Source of the DNA: Thermoplasmata archaeon
GTDB lineage: Archaea > Thermoplasmatota > Thermoplasmata > UBA10834
Assembly (NCBI GenBank): GCA_025457815.1
Contig: JALOTQ010000006.1
Location: forward strand, 1 to 34,265
Direction: 5' to 3'
Length of the DNA stretch: 34,265 nt
Both the position numbers and the translations under genes were made by a program. How positions within the stretch are numbered: position 1 is the first letter of the stretch; each line of letters opens with the position of its first letter. The notes under the pieces were generated by a model that had not been told where the DNA came from, ran no database searches, and saw only the letters and a program-made list of their open reading frames with translations. Below are positions 7,777-23,785 of the stretch, in pieces.

Positions 7777-7851
7777 TGCTCCCGCCGGGATTCGAACCCG
7801 GGTATCCAGCTCGAAAGGCTGGAATGATTGACCGGACTACACTACGGGAGC
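7777..7851 (-). tRNA. tRNA-Glu (anticodon UUC)
   Basis: The minus strand folds into a complete cloverleaf of 75 nt. The acceptor stem GCTCCCG pairs with CGGGAGC, followed by discriminator A. The anticodon stem CCAGC/GCTGG closes the loop CTTTCGA, giving anticodon UUC (bases 7813-7815). The T-arm is CCGGG-TTCGAAT-CCCGG. There is no intron, and the 3' CCA is not encoded (CCT follows). It reads GAA and GAG glutamate codons; in archaea the same tRNA also serves Glu-to-Gln schemes only for tRNA-Gln, so none is implied here. It is a lone tRNA gene between DUF835 and the ACT-domain gene. Confidence 0.97.
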
Positions 7852-22900: not shown

Positions 22901-22943
22901 AGCCAGCTGCCCCGGGGAGCGATGAACGCCGCTATTCAACACG

Positions 22944-22952
22944 TTTATATAA
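22944..22952 (+). promoter_or_regulatory. Strong TATA box of the L15e gene
   Basis: TTTATATAA is the best TATA-box match in the window. Transcription should begin near 22970-22977, which leaves a leader of about 80 nt before the L15e ATG, unusually long for this genome. Confidence 0.7.
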
Positions 22953-22970
22953 GCCAAGCCTTTTGGTGTG

Positions 22971-23010
22971 TCTCGCAGCGGCGAGATCCGCCTGGTCTCG
23001 CAATACCGGG
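22971..23010 (+). promoter_or_regulatory. Candidate structured leader of L15e with alternative hairpins
   Basis: GCGAGA at 22981-22986 can pair with TCTCGC on either side, at 22971-22976 (4-nt loop) or at 22996-23001 (9-nt loop). CCTGGT at 22991-22996 can pair with ACCGGG at 23005-23010 (one G-U pair). The middle pairing and the two outer ones exclude each other. The predicted transcription start falls close to or inside the first arm, so the first hairpin may be partial in the RNA. This is a fold read by eye. Confidence 0.4.
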
Positions 23011-23056
23011 GATGTGCGCTCATGCGTGAACCCGAAAACGGCTGGATGTGAACACA

Positions 23057-23785
23057 ATGGCAGAAGAGGCGAAGAAGGCTCCCGCGAAGAAGGAGCGCAA
23101 GGTCAAGGAACCCGCTGAGGCGCCAGTTGAGGCGGCCCCGGCAGCGGCCCCCCAGACCGGGGCGGCAGCGCCCGAGGGCAAGAAGCCCGTCAGCGGCAAG
23201 AACATGTATCATTTTATGGGCGAGGCCTGGAAGGACCCTTCCAGCGACGCGATGAAGCAGCTGATGTGGCAGAGGCTCGTGGACTGGAGGAAGGAAGGCA
23301 CCTACGTCAGGGTCGACAAGCCGCTCAGGCTGGACAGGGCCAGGACGCTGGGATACAAGGCGAAACCAGGCGTGGTCGTTGTCCGCACGAAGGTCAGGAA
23401 GGGCGGCCTGAGAAAGCACAGGATCAAGAAGGGCCGCAGGCCGAAGAGGAAAGGTATTCTGAAGATCACCATGAGGAAGAACATCCAGAGGATCGCAGAG
23501 GAGAGGACGGCCAAGCGCTACCCGAACCTCGAGGTCCTCGCGTCCTACTGGGTCGGAGAGGACGGCAGGCACAAGTGGTTCGAGATCATCATGCTGGACC
23601 CCAACCACCCCGTCATCAAGTCGGACCCGAAGCTCAACTGGATCTGCTCGACGAAGCACGCCAACAGGGCCAACAGGGGCCTTACACCGGCGGGCAAGAA
23701 GGGCAGGGGCTTAGTGAGGACCCGTGGGATGGGAGTGGAGAAGAACCGACCGTCCCTCAGGGCGCACAACAGGCAGGGTACCTAG
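23057..23785 (+). CDS. rpl15e: 50S ribosomal protein L15e with N-terminal extension
   Basis: The body (about residues 49-242) is a standard L15e of the large ribosomal subunit: NMYHFMGEAWKDP, LMWQRLVDWRKEGTYVRVDK, RLDRARTLGYKAKPG, GLRKHRIKKGRRPKRKG and RGLTPAGKKGRGL. Before it lies an unusual tail of about 48 residues rich in Ala, Lys, Pro and Glu. ATG 23057 is chosen because GGATGTGA at 23044-23051 is a good ribosome binding site 5 nt upstream; a GTG at 23048 would lie inside that site. The stop TAG shares the sequence CTAG with the stop of the convergent gene. Confidence 0.94.
   Translation: MAEEAKKAPAKKERKVKEPAEAPVEAAPAAAPQTGAAAPEGKKPVSGKNMYHFMGEAWKDPSSDAMKQLMWQRLVDWRKEGTYVRVDKPLRLDRARTLGYKAKPGVVVVRTKVRKGGLRKHRIKKGRRPKRKGILKITMRKNIQRIAEERTAKRYPNLEVLASYWVGEDGRHKWFEIIMLDPNHPVIKSDPKLNWICSTKHANRANRGLTPAGKKGRGLVRTRGMGVEKNRPSLRAHNRQGT

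Follow-up and report, generated by a model that had tools for sequence, protein, structure and literature searches.

A folded leader before the eL15 gene of a Thermoplasmata archaeon, a probable relative of RF03144 that shares letters with 23S rRNA

What is the role of the roughly 80 bases that precede the gene for ribosomal protein eL15 (L15e) in the window, that is, in the whole stretch of 34,265 nucleotides of archaeal DNA analysed here? Few cis-regulatory RNAs of archaea are, to our knowledge, known, and the first-pass annotation of this locus had proposed a structured leader that serves regulation, be it autoregulation or attenuation. Comparison with related genomes indicates that the stretch is a conserved folded RNA, and of the proposed uses autoregulation is the probable one, whereas attenuation finds no support.

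Promoter and gene start

The gene and its control signals lie as follows.

22937 to 22952, plus strand: promoter, with CAACA at 22937-22941 and the TATA box at 22944-22952
22972 to 22976, plus strand: predicted transcription start zone, start at about 22974 (TATA centre 22948 plus about 26; spacing conserved)
23044 to 23051, plus strand: Shine-Dalgarno (SD) sequence GGAUGUGA, a 7/8 match to GGAGGUGA; anti-SD duplex -8.6 kcal/mol
23057 to 23785, plus strand: gene for L15e (ribosomal protein eL15), an open reading frame of 242 aa; PF00827, E 1.2e-78

The L15e upstream regions of 20 genomes of the order were gathered, and those of the 18 members of the window's family were aligned. In these 18 members CAACA is unchanged and the TATA box is kept, both at a fixed spacing from the outermost helix of the leader, P1, and the distance from the TATA box to P1 is 31-32 bases in every one of them. 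Archaeal transcription starts about 26 bases downstream of the TATA centre, and the start thus predicted near 22974 would give a leader of about 83 nt, in good agreement with the length of about 80 nt that the first-pass annotation had derived from the TATA box. The start codon of L15e is ATG 23057, downstream of the SD sequence, which most relatives carry in the form GGANGUGA; an in-frame GTG at 23048 falls within the SD. The interval between the TATA box and the predicted start also holds a CTTTTGG tract (22960-22966, plus strand), which is kept in most family members though it is expected to lie outside the RNA.

Helices of the leader

The elements of the fold, all on the plus strand, are given in the order of the RNA.

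22976 to 22979, plus strand: 5' strand of P1, CAGC, invariant in 18/18, pairs with 23041-23044
22981 to 22988, plus strand: 5' strand of P2, GCGAGAUC, kept in the family and covered by the class-wide stem count
22994 to 23001, plus strand: 3' strand of P2, GGUCUCGC, likewise kept in the family and covered by that count
23008 to 23010, plus strand: 5' strand of P3a, GGG, the C helix of the proposed kink-turn; third pair A-U, G-C or C-G class-wide
23011 to 23015, plus strand: internal loop of P3, GAUGU, which includes ATG 23012; AUGU invariant in 32 distinct cores
23016 to 23019, plus strand: 5' strand of P3b, GCGC, with family pairing and class-wide covariation
23024 to 23027, plus strand: 3' strand of P3b, GCGU, with family pairing and class-wide covariation
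23028 to 23030, plus strand: internal loop of P3, GAA, non-bulged strand, invariant in 32 distinct cores; 23S has the same letters
23031 to 23033, plus strand: 3' strand of P3a, CCC, with class-wide covariation
23041 to 23044, plus strand: 3' strand of P1, GCUG, which shares the first base of the SD

The leader is conserved as far as the L15e start codon and reads CAGC-GGCGAGAYC..GGUCUCGC-GGGRAUGUGCGC..GCGUGAACCC..AAC-GCUG-GAUGUGA in the family alignment. The 18 family species have a common fold of P1 (22976-22979/23041-23044), P2 (22981-22988/22994-23001) and P3 (23008-23033), and P1, P2, P3a and P3b are intact in all 18 if a single alignment gap, in the P2 of G005, is set aside. P1 is present in the MFE structure of each of them when folded from the predicted start; being invariant in the family, it is without covariation support. 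Folded alone, the leader is barely above shuffled sequence in stability (z -0.78 and -1.50), and since single-sequence folding is not significant the support for the leader is comparative. In a sister family (f2; L059 and L060) the letters of P1 differ and the SD lies within a small hairpin, GGAUC-NGGU-GAUCC, which may be an alternative way to put structure on the SD.

But how does this fold relate to the switch that had been proposed for the locus? The first-pass annotation had GCGAGA (22981-22986) pair with either of two TCTCGC copies, one upstream (22971-22976) and one downstream (22996-23001), the latter in competition with a second hairpin formed by CCTGGT (22991-22996) and ACCGGG (23005-23010), and it had added two short reading frames, from ATG 23012 (five codons) and ATG 23022 (nine codons). 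All these motifs, and the TATA box at 22944-22952, were found at the positions it had given. The conservation of the arms in relatives, which it had itself named as a test, holds for GCGAGA and the downstream TCTCGC, which form part of the 8-bp P2 hairpin in 18/18 species, beyond chance, but not for the other pairings. The upstream arm is fully paired only in the window genome and its congener G003 (2/18) and straddles the predicted start. The CCTGGT/ACCGGG hairpin, too, is complete only in these two genomes (2/18), the 4-base insertion that creates ACCGGG being confined to them in the 18-member alignment, and its pairing probability in the window RNA is 0.00. As for the reading frames, ATG 23012 belongs to the invariant internal loop of P3 and ATG 23022 to its apical loop; the frame opened by the former ranges in relatives from 3 to 13 sense codons, the latter is not conserved, and the RNA motif accounts for both frames as by-products. 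A U-tract after the hairpins, as expected for transcription attenuation, was looked for and not found. Although the arms are present in the window genome, it is hardly credible that a three-arm switch with two short frames acts here by attenuation. Transcription attenuators as a class were rejected as well, as the mutually exclusive arms are not kept in relatives and a terminator is missing.

Relation to RF03144 and occurrence in the class

At the curated threshold Rfam misses the leader and reports only one tRNA in the window, a gene at 7777-7851 on the minus strand that is the sole match above its own cut-off. With a relaxed threshold the full model of RF03144, the predicted eL15-Euryarchaeota leader, matches 22982-23037 at 25.8 bits (E 0.005), below its curated gathering cut-off of 33.7 bits; this is the sole match with E <1 in the whole genome, and the relatives, at 23.7-30.2 bits, also score under the cut-off. 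The genomes of Haloferax volcanii and Methanosarcina acetivorans have RF03144 matches above it. The RF03144 alignment includes both helices, as two successive hairpins of which the second has an asymmetric internal loop, and its letters GG-N-RAUGUG and UGAA-N-CC are present in the window leader, which, like RF03144, immediately precedes rpl15e and has its orientation. Among the best 30 RF03144 matches of the class 28 precede L15e; the other two are L078, which is cut off at a contig end, and L097, a false positive in a coding region. The window leader thus resembles RF03144 (Eckert and Weinberg 2020, PMC7247131) in its place before rpl15e and in having a P2 hairpin followed by a P3 whose internal loop is RAUGU/GAA and whose outer pairs are GG..CC. 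It differs in its score below the cut-off, in a third outer pair that is G-C and not A-U, in its GCGC/GCGU upper stem, in a longer P2 and in an extra P1 clamp, which overlaps the SD and lies outside the Rfam model. We conclude from these likenesses that it is evidently a divergent relative of RF03144, classed as a divergent variant rather than as a formal hit because its score is below the Rfam cut-off. The eL15 leader is hereby extended to an order that scores under this cut-off.

Since the family alone is too conserved to judge covariation, the class was sampled. Because the family model put the internal loop out of register in distant members, the cores were anchored by pattern. The core GG-N-RAUGU-stem-GAA-N-CC, with pairing, occurs in 105/137 L15e upstream regions of the class, as compared to 0/137 reverse complements and 3/1370 shuffles, which means that roughly three in four L15e genes in the class sample are preceded by the leader; in the remaining 32/137 regions, which have no detectable core, it is absent or too changed. 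In 97 regions counted with no demand for pairing, the third outer pair is A-U in 70, G-C in 26 and C-G in 1, and the third upper pair is C-G in 72, G-C in 20 and U-A in 3. The covariation score of 32 distinct cores is 0.384, against 0.169 for shuffles, of which 0/500 reach the score of the cores, and no more than 0.113 for slid structures, these cores having been picked with pairing as a criterion, so that the pair count in the 97 regions is the unbiased one. At the first upper pair, where most have G-U, 18 have A-C; the two wobbles are alike in shape, and the swap counts as unpaired under the standard rules. P2 stands immediately 5' of the core; its sequences are very different between lineages, and a stem of P2 quality is found in 66% of the regions versus 15% of dinucleotide shuffles. 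Class-wide, the median distance from the core to the beginning of the SD is 8 nt; the quartiles of 3-13 are approximate, since the automatic finder of start codon and SD chose a wrong start for a few family members.

The element is also specific to its gene. A pattern scan of 257 Gb with the order-specific core yielded 19 places, 17 of them archaeal and two bacterial, the latter near the estimated chance number. L15e is directly downstream in 16 of the 17 archaeal matches, and the remaining locus, L113, ends at the motif and corresponds to the L15e leader of G011. Matches in a core-motif scan of named genomes lie on Thermoplasmata/Euryarchaeota MAG contigs.

Two variations of the leader were seen in passing. 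The apical loop of P3 carries large inserts, from 34 bases to some 150 or more, in L009, L010, L024, L027, L043, L183 and L185, with the core intact. In L003, L007 and L170, of one other family, the 3' strand of the leader core, GGTGAATCC, occurs a second time, in the promoter right after the TATA box.

Likeness to 23S rRNA and the proposed ligands

Where else do the letters of the core occur? In the 23S rRNA of relatives, at about 255-287 in domain I, we find ACYGAAUCC-hairpin-GGAGAUGUGG; Haloarcula 23S has ACCGAAGCCCUCACGGGCAAUGUGG in the same place. The pattern is present in 87/150 class genomes, as compared to 6 for the backward control, a minority of the matches being evidently outside rRNA, and it occurs once in the window's genome (C40:12703-12734). 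Leader core and 23S element have the letters GAA-NCC / GGN-RAUGUG in common, a match that apparently has not been reported before.

Kt-15, a natural ribosomal binding site of L7Ae, is described as a kink-turn whose non-bulged strand supplies an A, with a G-U-A triple and a normal G1b.A1n pair, and L7Ae bound (PMC4316175, PMC4005666). Place and letters of the 23S element fit Kt-15, but two other papers give the 3b.3n pair of Kt-15 as C-G, where we read G-C or G-U; the assignment to Kt-15, helix 15, is our own tentative reading from place and letters. In the leader, the GAU-G-U of P3 opposite GAA matches the Kt-15 pattern of a three-base bulge, G1b and U versus G2n-A-A1n, and the covarying helices on its two sides correspond to the C helix and the NC helix of that pattern. 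The internal loop of P3 thus appears to fit the complex kink-turn Kt-15, and P3 may well adopt a kinked fold. Besides the shared letters, leader and helix 15 of archaeal 23S have a three-base outer helix in common; they differ in that the hairpin closes the C-helix side in 23S and the NC-helix side in the leader. Eckert and Weinberg, in contrast, likened the RF03144 loop to the bulged-G module and called imitation of rRNA unclear; eL15 as the ligand is a prediction in their paper too, the main text of which contains neither "kink-turn" nor "L7Ae" (PMC7247131). In the other papers searched we found no discussion of this leader's ligand. Canonical bulged-G sites, sought in 23S as a candidate counterpart, gave few scattered matches and no place shared between genomes. 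Where the published work left rRNA imitation open, the domain I element is a concrete counterpart with the same letters, and it makes binding of the leader by L7Ae, eL15 or both a testable question.

What might then bind the leader, and to what effect? We take yeast L8 to be a protein of the L7Ae family. Yeast L15 is bound to L8, and each of the two contacts LSU helices 10 and 15 (PMC11353139). Masking of the SD by a protein-bound kink-turn leader has a published precedent in archaea, having been proposed for Archaeoglobus L7Ae leaders (PMC6298567). We consider it likely that the element is a cis-acting leader in the eL15 mRNA and a homologue of RF03144, through which eL15, perhaps with L7Ae, represses its own translation by blocking the SD. 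Transcription would begin at the foot of P1, and the leader RNA would form P2 and P3, the latter holding the kink-turn-like loop that matches the letters of 23S domain I. eL15 in excess over rRNA would bind this mimic, perhaps jointly with L7Ae, its neighbour in the ribosome, and stabilise P3 and the enclosing P1, whose overlap with the first base of the SD would block the SD, so that eL15 translation falls. The gene specificity favours eL15 as the needed ligand, and the kink-turn letters favour L7Ae as its partner.

Structure at the predicted 5' end could also act without a protein ligand, by stabilising the 5' end of the mRNA or by fixing a constant rate of translation. We give this very little credence, as the most conserved letters include loops (RAUGU, GAA) and match rRNA, which points to recognition by a protein, and as the element is confined to L15e.

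A different protein is a weightier alternative. The leader could be a Kt-15-type kink-turn with L7Ae as its ligand, in which case eL15 would be cross-regulated by L7Ae and not by itself: the core letters are those of an rRNA element that fits Kt-15, a natural L7Ae site (PMC4316175, PMC4005666), and L7Ae represses its own and other mRNAs via leader kink-turns adjacent to the SD (PMC5539422, PMC6298567). Yet the element was found before L15e alone; upstream of l7ae, the same genomes have a leader of another type, a standard box-C/D-like kink-turn with UGAUGA/CUGA loops; and L15 is not mentioned in the main text of the RIP-seq paper, whose species is not a euryarchaeon. Control by L7Ae alone therefore seems unlikely to us. 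Somewhat more plausible, though still tentative, is a broader reading, in which the eL15 leaders as a whole class imitate 23S Kt-15 in circularly rearranged form and are bound by L7Ae with or instead of eL15. If true, the level of eL15 would be set jointly with the neighbouring kink-turn protein, by a joint or cross-regulatory leader of a kind not considered in the published bulged-G interpretation.

With the archaeal L7Ae autoregulatory leaders (Daume 2017, PMC5539422; Huang and Lilley 2019, PMC6298567) the window leader shares a kink-turn-like element beside the SD, a ribosomal-protein gene downstream and a proposed translational OFF switch. Those leaders, however, precede l7ae and have the tandem G.A pairs of standard kink-turns, whereas the window has a Kt-15-like loop before L15e. 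A standard kink-turn of the l7ae type, with a three-base bulge and tandem G.A and A.G, was accordingly rejected for the window, whose loops are RAUGU and GAA. The l7ae leaders themselves, in the window's genome (L238; G000:C145:7480-7743) and in relatives (L222-L248), carry the standard box-C/D-like kink-turn GAAUGAUGACGGUGC..GCACCUGAAGGAGGU, and their SD lies inside or beside it.
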